From the NCBI GenBank assembly GCA_946408145.1, contig CAMJQX010000041.1, positions 1 to 10,654 of the forward strand: a DNA stretch of 10,654 nt, given 5' to 3'. Below, in pieces: positions 3,857 through 10,654 of the stretch. The notes below the pieces were generated by a model. The model was given only the letters and a program-made list of their open reading frames with translations, was not told the DNA's origin and did no database searches. Source of the DNA: an uncultured Clostridia bacterium. Its GTDB lineage: Bacteria > Bacillota_A > Clostridia > Oscillospirales > Oscillospiraceae. A program made the translations under genes and the position numbers. Numbering within the stretch: position 1 is the first letter of the stretch; the number at the start of each line of letters is the position of its first letter.

Positions 3857-5722
3857 ATGGCAGACATCAGTGTTACTTCCCTCGTCAAATCCTTCGAGAT
3901 CGGGAAAAACGTGCTCGACGGGCTGAGCTTCACCGTCAACCCCGGTGAGCGTGTGGGCATCCTCGGCCCCAACGGCTGCGGCAAGACCACGCTCTTTCGC
4001 ATCCTGGTCCATGAGCTCGACTATGACGAGGGGCAGGTCAGTACCGCGCCGGGCAAGCGCATCGGCCTGATCTCCCAGATCCCGGTCTACCCCGAGGGCT
4101 GGACGGTCGAAGACGTGCTGCGGCAGGCGCACCGGCGGCTGTATGACATGCAGGGCCGCATGGAGGAGCTTGCGCTGCAGATGGAGCGCGACGCCTCGCC
4201 GGCGCTGCTGCAGGAATACGACCGGCTGAGCGCCGAATTCCAGCGCCTGGGCGGCTACACCATGGAGAGCGACCGCAGCCGCGTCGCCAACGGCCTGCAG
4301 ATCCCCCTGCGCCAGCGCGAGCAGCTCTTCGACTCCCTCTCCGGCGGCGAAAAAACGCGGGTGAACCTCGCCCGCCTCATTCTGGAGGACACCGACATCC
4401 TCCTGCTCGACGAGCCCACCAACCACCTCGACCTGCGGGCCACCGAGTGGCTGGAGGACTATCTGCTGCATTTCAGGGGCACGGTGCTGGCCATCAGCCA
4501 CGACCGCTGGTTCCTCGACAAGGTGGTGCAGCGCTGCGTGGAGATCGCCGACGGCAGGGCCGAATTCTACTCCGGCAACTACAGCTTCTATGTCGAGGAG
4601 CGGCAGCGCCGCTTCGAGGAGAAGCTCAAGCAGTATGAGAAGGACCAGGCCAAGATCGAGCAGCTGCAGCGCGCGGCCGAGCAGATGCACCTCTGGGCCT
4701 TCATGGGCAACGACAAGCTCCACAAGCGCGCCTTCTCCATGGAAAAGCGCATCGAAAGGCTCTCACGGAGCGAAAAGCCCAGCGAGCAGAAAAAGCTCAG
4801 CGTCAAGTTCAAGCAGCGCGAATTCAACGGCGACGAGGCGCTGGTGATCGAAGGGCTCTCCAAGTCCTTCGGCGAGAAACGGCTCTTCTCCGAGCTCTCC
4901 CTGACCGTCACCGGCGGGGAGCATATCGCCATCGTGGGCGACAACGGCACCGGCAAATCCACGCTGGTCAAGCTGATCATGTCGGAGGAGACGCCCGACA
5001 CCGGCTATCTGTATCTCGGCCCCTCGATCCGCAAGGCCTACCTGCCGCAGATCGTACGGTTTACGGTGGACGAGCGCTCGGCGCTGGACACCATGCTCTA
5101 CGACTGCCGCTGCCAGCCGCAGGAGGCGCGCGACCGTCTGGCCGCTTTCGGCTTTCGCGGTGAGGACGTGTTCAAGCCCGTGGGCACGCTCTCCGGCGGC
5201 GAGCGCAGCCGTCTCAAGCTCTGCATGCTCATGGGCGGGGACATCAATCTGCTGATCCTCGACGAGCCGACCAACCATCTCGACATCGCCAGCCGCGAGT
5301 GGATGGAGGACGCGCTGTCCGACTATGAGCAGACCCTGCTCTTCGTCAGCCACGACCGCTGGTTCATCGAGAAGTTCGCCGACCGCATCTGGGCTCTCGA
5401 AGACGGCGAAATCACCGATTTTCGCGGCGGCTGGCGCGAATACTGCGCGTGGAAGGAGCGGCAGGCGGTCTTCCAGCAGGCGTCGCCCAAGCCGCAGAAG
5501 CCGAAGGAAGAGAAAAAGCCCCGCGTCCCCAACGCCGACAAGCTGATCGCCAAGACAGAGCGCGAGATCGCCCGGCTGGAGGAGAAGCTGCGGCAGCTCG
5601 ACGCCGAATCCGACGCCAACGCCAGCGATTACCAGAAGCTCATGGAGCTCGACGCGCAGAAGGATGCGCTCAATGAGGAGCTGCTGGCGCTTTATGACAA
5701 ATGGGAGGAACTCAATTCCTGA
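3857..5722 (+). CDS. ABC-F family ATPase (ribosome-associated, YdiF-like)
   Basis: Soluble protein of 621 residues with two ABC domains and no membrane segments, as in the ABC-F family whose members bind the ribosomal E site and act in translation or antibiotic protection. Domain 1 has Walker A GPNGCGKTT (37-45), signature LSGGE (161-165) and Walker B ILLLDEPTNHLD (181-192). Domain 2 has GDNGTGKST (361-369), LSGGE (445-449) and LLILDEPTNHLD (465-476). Both catalytic glutamates are present. The charged helical P-site tether between the domains spans about 240-315. A Lys/Pro-rich stretch (about 544-560) leads to a C-terminal coiled coil (about 560-620), an arrangement resembling YdiF/Uup types. 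The start follows AGGAAGAG at 3845-3852. It sits 45 nt after the PBP gene and its stop overlaps the next start, so it is probably in the same operon. Housekeeping and resistance roles cannot be separated by sequence alone. Confidence 0.93.
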   Translation: MADISVTSLVKSFEIGKNVLDGLSFTVNPGERVGILGPNGCGKTTLFRILVHELDYDEGQVSTAPGKRIGLISQIPVYPEGWTVEDVLRQAHRRLYDMQGRMEELALQMERDASPALLQEYDRLSAEFQRLGGYTMESDRSRVANGLQIPLRQREQLFDSLSGGEKTRVNLARLILEDTDILLLDEPTNHLDLRATEWLEDYLLHFRGTVLAISHDRWFLDKVVQRCVEIADGRAEFYSGNYSFYVEERQRRFEEKLKQYEKDQAKIEQLQRAAEQMHLWAFMGNDKLHKRAFSMEKRIERLSRSEKPSEQKKLSVKFKQREFNGDEALVIEGLSKSFGEKRLFSELSLTVTGGEHIAIVGDNGTGKSTLVKLIMSEETPDTGYLYLGPSIRKAYLPQIVRFTVDERSALDTMLYDCRCQPQEARDRLAAFGFRGEDVFKPVGTLSGGERSRLKLCMLMGGDINLLILDEPTNHLDIASREWMEDALSDYEQTLLFVSHDRWFIEKFADRIWALEDGEITDFRGGWREYCAWKERQAVFQQASPKPQKPKEEKKPRVPNADKLIAKTEREIARLEEKLRQLDAESDANASDYQKLMELDAQKDALNEELLALYDKWEELNS

Positions 5723-6459
5723 TGAACAAGAACAAAAACGGCCTCTGGGCCATCGTCTCCGCCGCGCTGGCCGCCGTCGGCTTTTTCCTGCGCTTTGCGC
5801 TGCGCGGCTACGCATACTGGGGTTACACGCTGCTCTTCGTCGCGGTGCTCATCGTGCTGCACCGCTTCGTGCCGCCGCTGCTGTGGAAGATCATCGTCGC
5901 GCTCGTGTGCCTGGGGCTCGTGTATTTCTGCATCGTCGAGATCCCGATCATCAAGAACGCCCGCACCGACAAGGAGCCGGAGCGGCCCTATCTGGTCGTG
6001 CTCGGCGCCGCGGTCTACGGCGATCGGCCCTCGCTGACGCTGGTGCGGCGGCTCGAGGGCGCGCTGGACTATCTCAACCGTTATCCCGACAGCGTGGCCG
6101 TCGTCTCCGGCGGCATGGGGCCGGGCGAGACCGTGACCGAGGGGCAGGCCATGTTCGACTGGCTGGTCGCCCGCGGCGTCGCTCCCGAGCGCGTGCTGAT
6201 CGAGGACCGCGCGACCTCCACGCGGGAGAATCTGGAATTCAGCTTCGACATCATCCGCAGCCGGGGCGACGAGCCCTCCGGGAATGTCGCGATCGTGTCG
6301 AGCGCCTACCACCTCTACCGCGCCAAGTGCATGGCCGAGAAGCTGGGGATCGCCGATCCGGCCGGCGTGGCCGCCCCCTGGGGCTACTTCTTCGTCATGC
6401 TCAACTATTTCATCCGCGAGGCCTTCGGTGTGACCCACCTCTGGGTCTTCGGGTGGTAA
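5722..6459 (+). CDS. YdcF/SanA/ElyC-like (DUF218) membrane protein
   Basis: Protein of 245 residues with about three hydrophobic N-terminal segments (roughly 8-27, 33-50 and 53-76), then a DUF218 domain (about 89-240). Family features are VVLGAAVYGDRPS (92-104), the SGGMG turn (129-133), EDRATSTRENLEFS (161-174) and SSAYHLYRA (193-201). Members such as SanA and ElyC affect envelope integrity and peptidoglycan or carbohydrate metabolism, but their chemistry is poorly defined. The start at 5722 overlaps the ABC-F stop (TGATG) and is served by GGGAGGAA (5703-5710). An in-frame ATG at 5701 lies before that site and is less likely. It is the last gene before a strong terminator. Its place downstream of a SEDS/PBP pair agrees with an envelope role. 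Confidence 0.88.
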   Translation: MNKNKNGLWAIVSAALAAVGFFLRFALRGYAYWGYTLLFVAVLIVLHRFVPPLLWKIIVALVCLGLVYFCIVEIPIIKNARTDKEPERPYLVVLGAAVYGDRPSLTLVRRLEGALDYLNRYPDSVAVVSGGMGPGETVTEGQAMFDWLVARGVAPERVLIEDRATSTRENLEFSFDIIRSRGDEPSGNVAIVSSAYHLYRAKCMAEKLGIADPAGVAAPWGYFFVMLNYFIREAFGVTHLWVFGW

Positions 6460-6472
6460 AGGGTATCAGCAG

Positions 6473-6504
6473 AAAGTGCGCAGCAAAACGGCTGCGCACT
6501 TTTT
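6473..6504 (+). terminator. Rho-independent terminator of the envelope operon
   Basis: A 12-bp perfect stem (6473-6484 with 6491-6502) closes a 6-nt loop AAAACG, and a run of five T (6500-6504) overlaps the end of the stem. It begins 13 nt after the YdcF stop. The minus strand lacks a comparable T run, so it works rightward only. Confidence 0.93.
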
Positions 6505-6539
6505 GTATGCTTTCTTCCGCCGACAGCCGCCCCTGCACT

Positions 6540-6591
6540 AAAAAAGAAAATACATTTCCCTCTTGCCAAATGCGGGAGAAGGTGCTATAGT
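6540..6591 (+). promoter_or_regulatory. Promoter of the choline operon, with A-tract
   Basis: The -35 hexamer TTGCCA (6563-6568), a 17-bp spacer and the -10 hexamer TATAGT (6586-6591) make a good sigma-A promoter. TG at 6583-6584 gives an extended -10. An A-rich stretch at 6540-6550 lies about 48-58 bp upstream of the predicted start near 6598, where an UP element would be. The leader is then about 80 nt. Confidence 0.8.
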
Positions 6592-6597
6592 AGCATT

Positions 6598-6656
6598 GTT
6601 CATGAAATGATATAGATCGCTAATTCGTGAATCTTTCAAATACAACCATTCGTGAA
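6598..6656 (+). repeat. Three operator-like TTC(A/G)TGAA motifs at exact 25-bp spacing
   Basis: GTTCATGAA (6598-6606), ATTCGTGAA (6623-6631) and ATTCGTGAA (6648-6656) start exactly 25 bp apart. TTCATGAA is a perfect palindrome and the other two differ by one base. Sequence between the motifs is not conserved. They lie from the predicted transcription start to 7 nt before the AAGGAG ribosome binding site. The downstream gene begins with a DNA-binding domain, so these are candidate autoregulatory operators (inference). Confidence 0.6.
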
Positions 6657-6676
6657 ACCTCGCAAGGAGAGAAGAT

Positions 6677-8434
6677 ATGAACAGACAGGAAGCCGATATC
6701 CTCTGCCTCCTCCATCGAAGCACCTACGCGAGCCAGCGGGAGCTGGCCGCCGCGGCGGGCTACTCGGTCGGCATCGTCAACCGCTCGCTCCGCGCCCTGC
6801 GGGACGAGGGCTATCTCGACGCCCGGCAGCGCCCCACCGCGAAGGCCGAGGCCGCCTTCCGCGCCGCCTCCCCGCGCAGCGCGGTCATCCTCGCCGCGGG
6901 CGCCGGGCTGCGCATGGCCCCCATCGGCATGGAGACGCCCAAGGCCCTGCTCGAGATCAAGGGCGAGGTGCTGATCGAGCGGCTGATCCGCCAGCTGCAC
7001 GAGGTCGGCGTGCGGGAGATCTGCGTGGTCGTGGGCTTCATGATGGAGCGCTTCGAATACCTGATCGACGAGTTCGACGTGGAGCTGATCGTCAACAGCG
7101 AGTACGCCGGGCGCAACAACCTCCACTCGCTGGCCCTGGCGGCCGACCGCGTCTCCAACAGCTACGTGATCCCCGGCGACCTCTGGTTCCGGGAAAACCC
7201 CTTCCGCCGGGAGGAGCTCTACTCCTGGTTCATGGTCTCCTCGCTGCGGGACGCGGAGAGCGAGCTGCGCGTCAACCGCAAGCAGGAGCTGGTCTACGTC
7301 CCCGAAGGCGAGCCCGGCAACGCCGTGATCGGCGCGGCCTATCTCTGCGAGGAGCAGGCTGTGATCGTGCGCGGAAAGCTGGTGCTGATGAACCGCGGCC
7401 GCAAATATGACGACTCGCTCTGGGAATCCACCCTCCGCGAGGGCGACCGGATGTTCGTCCCCGCCCGCGTGCTGGGGCCGGACGACGCCGTGAACATCAA
7501 CACCTTCGAACAGCTGCGCGAGCTGGACAGCGGCTCGGCCCACCTGCACTCCGACGTGATCTCCGTGATCGCCGAGGTGCTGCACGCGGCGCCGGAGGAG
7601 GTCACCGAGATCGCGGTGCTCAAAAAGGGCATGACCAACCGCTCCTTCTGCTTCAGCTGCCGGGGGCGGAAGTACATCATGCGCATTCCCGGCGAGGGCA
7701 CCAACATGCTCATCAACCGCCGCCAGGAGGCGGAGGTCTTCGAGACCATCCGCGGCCTCGGCCTCTGCGACGACCCGGTCTACATCAACCCCGACAACGG
7801 CTACAAGATCACCCGCTATCTGGAGGGTGTGCGCACCTGCGATCCCGGGAGTGAAGAGGATCTCAGGCGCTGCATGGCAAAGCTGCGCGCCTTCCACGGA
7901 ATGCGCCTGCGGGTACCGCACAGCTTCGACATCTTCGGAAACATCGAATTTTATGAGAAGCTCTGGAACGGTCTGCCCTCCGTGTACAAGGACTACGCGC
8001 GCACGAAGGAGCAGGTGCTGTCCCTGCGGCCCTACATCGAGGCGCACGCGGAGGAAGCCCGCCTGACCCACATCGACGCCGTGCCGGACAATTTCCTGTT
8101 CTGCACCGGCCCCGACGGGCGGGAGCAGCTGCAGCTGACCGACTGGGAATACGCAGGCATGCAGGACCCGCACGTGGACATCGCGATGTTCTGCATCTAT
8201 TCGCTCTACGACCGCGCGCAGGCCGACCGCCTGATCGACATTTACTTCGAGGGCGCCTGCCCCGAGGAGACGCGCGTCAAGATCTACTGCTATATCGCGG
8301 CCTGCGGGCTGCTGTGGAGCAACTGGTGCGAGTACAAGCGCAGCCTCGGCGTCGAGTTCGGCGAGTACGCCCTGCGGCAGTACCGCTACGCCAAGGATTA
8401 CTACAAGCTCGTGCGGGAGGCGCTGGATGAATAA
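6677..8434 (+). CDS. Fusion: winged helix-turn-helix + LicC-like nucleotidyltransferase + LicA-like choline kinase
   Basis: Cytosolic protein of 585 residues in three parts. Residues 1-60 form a winged helix-turn-helix (recognition region about 18-46). Residues 68-285 are a nucleotidyltransferase, with AVILAAGAGLRM (69-80), TPKALLEIKG (87-96), NNLHSLAL (147-154), PGD with candidate metal ligand D168, and YDDSLW (244-249). Residues 300-585 are a choline-kinase-like phosphotransferase, with KGMTNRSF (317-324), the Brenner-type HIDAVPDN (465-472, H-x-D-x4-N) and metal-binding TDWEYAG (488-494). By family, the kinase makes phosphocholine from choline and ATP, and the transferase part would make a CDP- or NDP-linked product. 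Bifunctional LicCA proteins are known, for example in Treponema denticola, and similar HTH-bearing proteins occur in gut Clostridia. AAGGAG (6664-6669) supports the start. Its end overlaps the next gene by 8 bp. The kinase domain is the most secure part. The regulatory role of the HTH is inferred. Confidence 0.9.
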   Translation: MNRQEADILCLLHRSTYASQRELAAAAGYSVGIVNRSLRALRDEGYLDARQRPTAKAEAAFRAASPRSAVILAAGAGLRMAPIGMETPKALLEIKGEVLIERLIRQLHEVGVREICVVVGFMMERFEYLIDEFDVELIVNSEYAGRNNLHSLALAADRVSNSYVIPGDLWFRENPFRREELYSWFMVSSLRDAESELRVNRKQELVYVPEGEPGNAVIGAAYLCEEQAVIVRGKLVLMNRGRKYDDSLWESTLREGDRMFVPARVLGPDDAVNINTFEQLRELDSGSAHLHSDVISVIAEVLHAAPEEVTEIAVLKKGMTNRSFCFSCRGRKYIMRIPGEGTNMLINRRQEAEVFETIRGLGLCDDPVYINPDNGYKITRYLEGVRTCDPGSEEDLRRCMAKLRAFHGMRLRVPHSFDIFGNIEFYEKLWNGLPSVYKDYARTKEQVLSLRPYIEAHAEEARLTHIDAVPDNFLFCTGPDGREQLQLTDWEYAGMQDPHVDIAMFCIYSLYDRAQADRLIDIYFEGACPEETRVKIYCYIAACGLLWSNWCEYKRSLGVEFGEYALRQYRYAKDYYKLVREALDE

Positions 8435-9155
8435 GGTAAAACGCGCCGTTATCGTCGCGGCGGGCGCCGGTGTGCGGATGCGCCCGCTCACGCTCACAAC
8501 GCCGAAGCCTCTGATCTCCGTCAACGGCACGCGCATGATCGACAGCGTGATCGCCGCCCTGCACGCGAACGGCATCACGGAGATATACGTCGTCATCGGC
8601 TGGCTGAAGGAGGCCTTCGCCTCCCTGCCGGAGCAGTACCCCGGTCTGACGCTGATCGAAAACCCGTATTTTGACCGCTGCAACAACATCTCCTCGCTGT
8701 ATCTCGCGCGGGAGCATCTGGAGGACGTCATCATCCTCGACGCAGACCAGATCATTTTCAATCCCGAGATCCTGTCGCCGGACTTCGAGCGCTCCGGCTA
8801 CAACGCGATCTGGACGGATGAGGAGACCTCGGAATGGCTCATGACGGTGGAGGACGGCGTCGTCCGCTCCTGCAGCCGCACGGGCGGCCGCGGCGGCTGG
8901 CAGCTCTACAGCATCTCCCGCTGGAGCGCGGAGGACGGCCGCAGGCTGCGCCGCCATCTGGAAATTGAATTTGAAGAAAAGCAAAACCGGCAGATCTACT
9001 GGGACGACGTGCCCATGTTCTGTTATCCGGAGGAATACCGCCTCGGCGTCCGCCCCATGCGGCGTGAGGACGTGATCGAGATCGACAGTCTGGAGGAGCT
9101 CGCCGCGATCGACGCGAGCTACCGGACAGCTTTGGGAGGGAATATACATGAATAA
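8427..9155 (+). CDS. licC: LicC-type CTP:phosphocholine cytidylyltransferase
   Basis: Cytosolic nucleotidyltransferase of 242 residues, close to the roughly 230 of pneumococcal LicC. It would convert phosphocholine and CTP to CDP-choline. Motifs are VIVAAGAGVRM (8-18), PKPL with candidate catalytic K27 (26-29), NPYFDRCNNISSLYLA (79-94), LDAD with metal-binding aspartates (104-107), SEWL (135-138), YSISRW (161-166), YWDDVPM (191-197) and EIDSLEEL (218-225). Several of these match remembered LicC segments position for position (IDAD, NEWL, ISYW, YWDTIPM). This makes it the better LicC orthologue than the domain in the upstream fusion. The start is preceded by GGGAGG (8415-8420) and lies inside the end of the previous gene. 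It likely completes CDP-choline formation after the kinase. A related amino-alcohol phosphate substrate, such as phosphoethanolamine, remains possible. Confidence 0.88.
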   Translation: MNKVKRAVIVAAGAGVRMRPLTLTTPKPLISVNGTRMIDSVIAALHANGITEIYVVIGWLKEAFASLPEQYPGLTLIENPYFDRCNNISSLYLAREHLEDVIILDADQIIFNPEILSPDFERSGYNAIWTDEETSEWLMTVEDGVVRSCSRTGGRGGWQLYSISRWSAEDGRRLRRHLEIEFEEKQNRQIYWDDVPMFCYPEEYRLGVRPMRREDVIEIDSLEELAAIDASYRTALGGNIHE

Positions 9156-10654
9156 ACAGAAACAGGGCCTGCTGTCCAATGTGGACCCGGCCACCACCAT
9201 CATCCCCTTTATCTGCATCTTCATCCTCTGCGTCTTTTTCATCGTCAATCCCGTCGGCTCCACCGACGCCCTGTCCGCGATCCGCAGCTTCCTCGGCGAC
9301 AGCTTCGGCACCTACTACCTGATCGTGGGCCTGGGCGTGCTCGCCGTCTCGCTCTGGATCGCCTTCTCCGATATCGGCAGGATCACGCTCGGCAAGCCCG
9401 GCGAGAAGCCGCAGTACAGCTTCTTCACCTGGGGCGCCATGGTCTTCACCTGCGGCCTTGCGGCCGATATCCTGTTCTACTCCCTCTGCGAGTGGATCTA
9501 CTACGCGCAGGAGCCCCATGTGGCCGATCTCGGCTCGATCCAGGACTGGGCTTCGACCTACACGCTCTACCACTGGGGTCCCATCCCCTGGAGCTTCTAC
9601 GCGACGCTCGCCGCCTGCTTCGGCTTCATGCTGCACGTGCGCGGCTGCCACAAGCAGAAGTACTCCGAGGCCTGCCGCCCCATCCTCGGCGACAAGACGG
9701 ACAAGCTCCCCGGCAAGATCATCGACGTGCTGGCCGTGATCGCGCTGATCGCGGGCACCGCCACCACCTTCTCGATCGCGACCCCGCTGCTGGGCGAGGC
9801 GCTGAGCACCATCTTCGGCATCGAGCCCTCCAAATTCGTCACGATCGCGATCCTGGTCATCACCTGCACGGTCTACACGATCTGCGTCATGCGCGGCATC
9901 AAGGGCGTGTCGTGGCTGGCAAACTTCTGCATGTACGTCTACGGCGCGGTGCTGCTGTTCGTGCTCTTCTTCGGCGGCGAGGCCCGCTACATCATCGAGA
10001 CCGGCTTTTCCGCGCTGGGCAACATGGTGCAGAACTTCATCGTCCTGAGCACCTGGACCGACGCACTGCGCACTTCCTCCTTCCCGCAGAACTGGACGAT
10101 CTTCTACTGGGCCTACTGGATGGTCTGGTGCGTGGCCTCCCCCTTCTTCATGGGCAGCATCAGCCGCGGCCGCACGGTCAAGCAGGTCATTCTCGGCGCC
10201 TATCTCTTCGGCGTCTCCAGCACGCTCATCTCCTTCATCATCCTCGGCAACTACGGCCTCGGCCTGCAGGTCATGGGCAAGTTCGATGCGGTCGGCTTCT
10301 ACGAGAGCTGCGGCAGCCTCTACACGACGATCATCGCCATCGTGAAGACGCTGCCGGCCTATCAGCTGCTGCTGGTGCTGATCATCGTCTCGATGATCGC
10401 CTTCTACGCGACCTCCTTCGACAGCATCACGCTCGTGGCCTCCGCCTACAGCTACAAGAAGCTCGAGGACGACACCGAGGTCAGCGGCCGGATGAAGTTC
10501 TTCTGGGCGCTGCTGCTGATCATGCTCCCGATCGCGCTCATCTTCTCCGAGGGCTCGATGAACAATCTGCAGACCGTGTCCATCATCGCGGCCTTCCCGA
10601 TCGCGGCGGTCATCTGCCTCATCATCGCAAGCTTCATCAAGGACGCGAAGGGCT
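9148..10654 (+). CDS. BCCT-family transporter, probable choline/quaternary ammonium uptake (3' end outside window)
   Basis: Integral membrane secondary transporter of the betaine/choline/carnitine family. 502 residues are visible, covering most of the core and about eleven hydrophobic segments. The family signature appears as NWTIFYWAYW (315-324), with Tyr where the third aromatic is normally Trp. It is followed by the SISRGR loop (337-342). The unwound-helix region reads CGLAADILFY (102-111). D107 falls where BetP has Gly153 and where proton-coupled BetT has Asp, which points to H+-coupled transport rather than Na+ (inference from family knowledge). The ATG overlaps the licC stop by 8 bp with GGGAGGG at 9134-9140, so it belongs to the choline operon and likely supplies the kinase. 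It takes the place of LicB, the usual transporter in lic loci. Carnitine or betaine uptake cannot be excluded. Confidence 0.92.
   Translation, partial: MNKQKQGLLSNVDPATTIIPFICIFILCVFFIVNPVGSTDALSAIRSFLGDSFGTYYLIVGLGVLAVSLWIAFSDIGRITLGKPGEKPQYSFFTWGAMVFTCGLAADILFYSLCEWIYYAQEPHVADLGSIQDWASTYTLYHWGPIPWSFYATLAACFGFMLHVRGCHKQKYSEACRPILGDKTDKLPGKIIDVLAVIALIAGTATTFSIATPLLGEALSTIFGIEPSKFVTIAILVITCTVYTICVMRGIKGVSWLANFCMYVYGAVLLFVLFFGGEARYIIETGFSALGNMVQNFIVLSTWTDALRTSSFPQNWTIFYWAYWMVWCVASPFFMGSISRGRTVKQVILGAYLFGVSSTLISFIILGNYGLGLQVMGKFDAVGFYESCGSLYTTIIAIVKTLPAYQLLLVLIIVSMIAFYATSFDSITLVASAYSYKKLEDDTEVSGRMKFFWALLLIMLPIALIFSEGSMNNLQTVSIIAAFPIAAVICLIIASFIKDAKG

Follow-up and report, generated by a model that had tools for sequence, protein, structure and literature searches.

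Enzyme-repressors and a fused HTH-LicC-LicA protein

In enteric bacteria, NadR carries a helix-turn-helix (HTH) domain, an NMN adenylyltransferase and a ribosylnicotinamide kinase, in that order, and its operator is a short palindrome; the biotin ligase-repressor BirA is a catalytic protein with a DNA-binding domain at its N-terminus, represses the genes of its pathway and binds half-sites that are widely spaced. NadR is listed as a trigger enzyme in PMC8249747, and its core target as given in PMC5343134, nadA-pnuC, includes a gene for substrate uptake. For BirA, the latter source describes the site as an inverted repeat, notes that lineages without the DNA-binding domain are apparently without a regulon and, among Proteobacteria, places autoregulation in the Desulfovibrionales only.

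The window analysed here (the whole stretch of 10,654 nucleotides from an uncultured Clostridia bacterium) encodes on its forward strand a protein of 585 aa (6677..8434), a proposed choline-pathway kinase and repressor, in which a MarR-type winged HTH (wHTH; residues 1-66, 6677..6874, recognition helix at about residues 31-43), a LicC-like domain (residues 67-285, 6875..7531) and a LicA-like choline kinase (residues 300-575, 7574..8401) share a single frame. This architecture had been put forward in an initial annotation of the DNA and is confirmed by sequence and predicted fold, with a DNA-binding domain and metabolic enzyme domains together in a single chain, as in a trigger enzyme. The likeness to NadR extends to the make-up of the chain (HTH, nucleotidyltransferase and small-molecule kinase), although the pathway is that of choline rather than NAD, the enzymes belong to other families and autoregulation is the main theme here, while BirA shares the N-terminal position of the DNA-binding domain but has a catalytic domain unrelated to those of the fusion. 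The two enzyme domains match their Streptococcus pneumoniae counterparts, LicC and LicA, both in sequence and in predicted fold; the pneumococcal enzymes are separate proteins, whereas here they are fused behind an HTH and, in the window's type, key LicC residues are changed.

No Foldseek match to the HTH reached E 0.001, and the fold was then compared by VIA-align, in which, among the folds in the lists compared, the predicted structure of residues 1-68 shares the fold of MarR-family wHTH regulators, in line with the suggestion that a wHTH stands at the N-terminus. MarR regulators, however, are stand-alone proteins with dimerisation helices of their own; as the wHTH of the fusion begins at residue 1 and passes directly into the LicC-like domain, forming the N-terminus of an enzyme rather than a MarR dimer unit that stands alone, the protein is not classed among them. 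As far as can be read from sequence, the fusion appears to combine the features of an enzyme-repressor of the BirA/NadR kind, and it very probably acts as both an enzyme and a gene regulator. No paper on an HTH-LicCA regulator was found in the open-licence part of PMC, and one could exist in the subscription literature.

Several relatives depart from the three-domain plan. By eye, P0016 (832 aa) and P0018 (829 aa) have a LicC2-like domain fused C-terminal to HTH-LicC-LicA, and P0015 (960 aa) apparently has a second, divergent HTH and LicC-like unit after the first HTH-LicC-LicA. At locus L163 the first HTH residues pass directly into the kinase, with most of the HTH and LicC missing and an upstream site that looks degenerate, which is either a natural deletion or an assembly fault.

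The fusion gene overlaps by 8 bp a gene for a stand-alone LicC2 of 242 aa (8427..9155), behind which a BCCT betaine/carnitine/choline transporter gene (9148..10653) runs off the window, both on the forward strand. Upstream lies a DUF218 protein (5701-6459), preceded, as judged by eye, by an FHA-FtsW-like protein, a penicillin-binding protein and an ABC-F-like ATPase. At least 65 of the 81 loci formed by the window and its closest relatives (type A1, defined below) have a BCCT gene downstream; some copies, including the window's own, were overlooked by the ORF picker. Further choline-related neighbours include a LicD gene upstream of the fusion in L025 and, in L005, genes for another choline kinase and for an EamA transporter downstream. 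In the more distant type B, all ten of the downstream proteins tested, from 9 of 20 loci, carry choline-binding repeats, and three also have a GH25 lysozyme domain, which suggests that the cell surface is decorated with choline.

Repeated promoter sites in the window and its relatives

The DUF218 gene is followed by a hairpin resembling an intrinsic terminator (6469..6506, forward strand; stem of 16 pairs, loop of 6), beyond which a sigma-70-type promoter-like site, TTGCCA-17-TATAGT with a TG before the -10 (6563..6591, forward strand), matches the consensus at 10 of 12 positions, its identification being by consensus match only. Between this -10 box and the start codon the motif TTCRTGAA occurs three times, at exact intervals of 25 bp: candidate operator site 1 (TTCATGAA, inside GTTCATGAAA; 6599..6606), found at the same place in L001 and L002, site 2 (TTCGTGAA; 6624..6631) and site 3 (TTCGTGAA; 6649..6656), all on the forward strand and ahead of a probable ribosome-binding site (AAGGAGAGA; 6664..6672, forward strand) recognised from sequence. 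Site 3 occupies the -27/-28 position that most relatives use, and no further copy of TTCRTGAA occurs in the whole 10.6-kb window.

Type A1 comprises the window and the best 80 of 371 relatives found in genome contigs (n = 81). At 63 of the 81 loci, two TTCRYGAA sites lie at a spacing of 24 or 25 and together match at 15 or more of 16 positions, and none has a pair of this quality at a spacing of 23 or 26; elsewhere in the range scanned (9-59), this score was reached only at a spacing of 50 (3 loci) and of 59 (1 locus). Shuffled controls gave a mean of 0.02 loci over 50 rounds, with a maximum of 1. At 14 or more matches the pair is found at 76 of 81 loci, the remaining five being weaker. The register of the pair relative to the start codon varies (-28/-3, -27/-3, -51/-27, -58/-33, -60/-36 and -78/-53/-28), indicating that the pair is an autonomous unit, and in L034 it flanks a TATAAT box on both sides. 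The start codon is spanned by the second site at 56 loci (GTTC|ATGAAC, second site at -3, first site at -28 or -27), an arrangement that may help to explain a near-constant Met-Asn N-terminus. L079 has two operator pairs before one gene, at -166/-142 (from 5835) and at -27/-3.

In 86 of 397 genomes, the family to which the genome of L034 belongs, relatives matched at E 1e-45 or better, 94 times in all; 76 of these matches were taken with their upstream DNA, and 15 close genes of type A and three further ones were omitted. By identity, the relatives divide into types A2 (43-57%, n = 16), B (approximately 34-40%, n = 23) and C (approximately 26-33%, n = 17); type D consists of HTH-less LicCA genes (n = 4), and type E of genes first matched in the kinase part (n = 16) together with L090, nine of these 17 being full HTH-LicCA genes of type B. 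Outside the closest group the operator shrinks to the dyad GTTCA-N24/25-TGAAC, of which each arm is widened in the window's type to a near-palindrome, GTTCACGAA or RTTCRTGAA. An exact GTTCA-N23..26-TGAAC is present in 39 of 81 A1 loci (78 of 81 with one mismatch), 11 of 16 in A2, 20 of 23 in B, 6 of 17 in C, 9 of 17 in the mixed type E and 0 of 4 in the HTH-less type D, with a spacing of mostly 24 or 25 across types.

Targets of the dyad and its proposed reader

A genome-scale pattern, TATAATGTTCA-N24/25-TGAAC, which requires TATAAT and to which operators placed otherwise are invisible, gave 33 rows in 27 of the 397 genomes, corresponding to 32 distinct sites as one was listed on both strands; a reversed control pattern gave a single match. 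All 32 sites precede either HTH-LicCA genes (24) or unlinked BCCT genes (8), and none lies elsewhere. The former were assigned by direct comparison in 21 cases, one of which (G519) is broken by a stop with the HTH piece present, and by place relative to the fetched genes in three (G673:C11, G464 and G595:C46), while the BCCT sites comprise six assigned by direct comparison plus L203 and G673:C100 (L234). A stricter type-A pattern matched only 2 of the 397 genomes and was judged too strict. Of 20 type A genomes, eight contain matches to the exact pair pattern, at the HTH-LicCA gene in six and at three places away from it (L081, L085 and L088, the last inside a LicC2 coding region); with a control pattern matching in five of the same genomes, a dispersed regulon in type A finds no support.

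In type B genomes BCCT is usually unlinked. Matches to BCCT at E 1e-60 or better were obtained in 32 of 35 genomes searched, and among the best 30 unlinked loci the exact dyad lies within 250 bp of the start of the match in 27, or in 25 of 28 once two loci from genomes picked by the motif (L232 and L235) are set aside. By comparison, 116 of 3000 random 265-bp windows from the same pool, motif loci included, contain it. A hexamer with at least five of the six TATAAT letters precedes the dyad at 20 of the 27 loci. The exact dyad is missing from the scanned stretch at 3 of the 30, and in L254 a dyad is present farther upstream of BCCT. Control of its own operon, as the initial annotation had proposed for the protein, is well supported by this conserved operator and also, in a step beyond that proposal, by its recurrence before an unlinked gene for a choline-type transporter in the genomes of relatives. 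An operator conserved at promoters of the protein's own pathway, as seen here by comparative genomics only, is a further feature of trigger enzymes.

The co-occurrence of HTH and leader motif, which the initial annotation had proposed to survey, was found outside A1, where the exact dyad accompanies 45 of 61 relatives that have the HTH and 1 of 16 that do not (Fisher p 1e-6, with no correction for relatedness). Divided by recognition helix, the dyad is present with 45 of 57 proteins of the SLGxxN type, 12 lacking the exact form, and with 0 of 4 of the STGYxS type. A tree-based test that controls for relatedness is not significant and, with just five independent pairs, is underpowered; for the exact dyad an average of 1.3 pairs change in the same direction and none in the opposite direction, and for the dyad with one mismatch 2.0 and 1.0, respectively. 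The type C gene L154 has the dyad and a degenerate HTH. A type C subgroup, L147-L150, has the recognition helix STGY[VI]SQT, is without the dyad and seemingly lies close behind another gene. Overall, the link between dyad and HTH appears strong by targets and position and is not proven by co-loss.

The rival reading that retains most weight, though an improbable one, is that the dyad is a genuine operator of choline genes bound by a separately encoded regulator, with the fused HTH doing something else. The non-significant outcome with five pairs is compatible with it, as are three genomes (G365, G380 and G653) that have the dyad at a BCCT gene and in which no HTH-LicCA was found; these genomes may be incomplete, or another protein may read the dyad. 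Against it, none of the 14 neighbour clusters of at least six members is regulator-like when the sequences are inspected by eye, all 32 targets are HTH-LicCA or BCCT genes, and the dyad is absent from most relatives that have no HTH or an STGYxS helix.

Less likely still is translational control, in which the repeats would form a leader RNA hairpin hiding the ribosome-binding site and start codon, with the HTH incidental. TTCACGAA and TTCGTGAA are mutually reverse-complementary, and the position of the second site across the start codon in those 56 A1 loci would suit such a hairpin, but 46 of 67 type A pairs would share a C-A mismatch at one position of the stem, full pairing is possible in 10 of 67 and the spacing is fixed at 24 or 25. 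Further, in 24 of 30 B/E dyads, whose consensus includes TTGCAT-like -35 boxes, a TATAAT-like hexamer stands directly before GTTCA, so that by the usual promoter geometry the left arm falls at about -6 to -2 and is presumably untranscribed, marking the dyad as an operator rather than an RNA structure. As pairing is not conserved and the window has no Rfam match, the RNA-leader reading was rejected. That the HTH is vestigial, or a dimerisation module only, is less credible again: its mean pairwise identity (54%) is the lowest of the three domains (65% and 72% for the others), but it was found in 80 of 80 kept A1 relatives, the promoter-placed dyad goes along with it, and the residues of its recognition helix show little or no variation among 32 homologues, in place of the loss from most intact homologues that the initial annotation had named as counter-evidence.

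Enzyme domains, proposed mechanism and significance

The kinase retains the residues corresponding to Thr29, Asp176, Asn181 and the choline pocket of LicA (T320, D467, N472, V469, Y492, W547, W550 and Y564), with Tyr508 in place of Glu213 as the sole pocket exception, the mapping being read from an alignment to the pneumococcal pocket residues named in PMC4364537. The window's fused LicC domain keeps the signature residues R79 and K89 and has D168 at the position of Asp107, and it is altered at others, with Ser195 at Trp136, Asn273 at Glu216 and Asn275 at Asp218. Trp136 is presumably the choline tryptophan of LicC, and we take Asp218 to be a metal-site residue. Across types A1 and A2 the fused domain shows Trp136 to Ser in 95 of 97, Tyr190 to Phe in 93 of 97 and Asp218 to Asn in 95 of 97, while Glu216, described as metal-coordinating in LicC (PMC6697681), is kept in 92 of 97, the window with its Asn being an exception. 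Despite these changes the domain is well conserved, its mean pairwise identity being the 65% given above.

LicC2, in contrast, mostly retains the residues that are altered in the fused domain: in 54 proteins chosen by position and length, Trp136 is kept in 54, Glu216 in 52, Asp218 in 52 and Tyr190 in 40, and the window's own LicC2 has Trp136, Glu216 and Asp218. Of ten type A genomes without an adjacent LicC2 that were searched at E 1e-12, six contain a LicC-like ORF whose size (253-368 aa) is that of a separate protein, three have only another fusion-sized LicC-like ORF (598-617 aa) and one (G012) has only its own fusion. The fused LicC of type B keeps Trp136 and Tyr190 in 23 of 23 and has Glu at 218 in 21, and no LicC2 match was found among the ORFs of approximately 5 kb downstream at 20 B/E loci.

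The interpretation in the initial annotation is supported in part. Its claim that the fusion contains both activating enzymes of choline metabolism is doubtful for the window's type, in whose LicC domain Trp136, Tyr190 and Asp218 are changed in nearly all members. Because the fused domain of this type lacks Trp136 and Asp218 while LicC2 keeps them, it may be a ligand-sensing pseudoenzyme; the pattern is read as binding without catalysis, with a change of substrate also possible. Whether the window's lineage has a conserved sensing pseudoenzyme whose catalysis has moved to LicC2, with type B representing the full bifunctional enzyme and repressor, we regard as evenly balanced.

Taken as a whole, we consider it highly probable that the fusion is an enzyme-repressor of the BirA/NadR kind that binds the promoter dyad of its own choline operon in a manner set by a metabolite. 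The details of DNA binding, dimerisation, repression and effector that we infer are as follows. The N-terminal MarR-like wHTH, held as a dimer by the large catalytic domains, would bind the long dyad GTTCA-N24/25-TGAAC, which is placed on the transcription start of the protein's own operon, and the bound protein would block transcription. In the window, the kinase, LicC2 and the BCCT importer would come under joint control, and in type B the dyad would also control the unlinked BCCT importer in trans. The occupancy of the enzyme domains by ligand would set the DNA-binding state, such that choline, phosphocholine or CDP-choline may be sensed by the fusion itself. The most likely co-repressor would be a product from late in the pathway, either CDP-choline or phosphocholine together with CTP, bound in the LicC-type domain; the main alternative, ranked second, is that choline bound to the kinase would cause release and so act as an inducer.

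The gut and rumen Firmicutes with relatives in this collection include genomes of Faecalibacterium, Ruminococcus and Fusicatenibacter, and in many such bacteria choline activation appears to be governed by an enzyme that also serves as its own transcription factor. The defined operator, with the importer as a second target in some, makes the control of choline uptake in commensals directly testable. If the proposed division between the window's lineage and type B is true, the family shows both stages of an enzyme becoming a regulatory sensor, and the natural variants (intact, altered and HTH-less) provide a set in which the change from enzyme to sensor can be studied.
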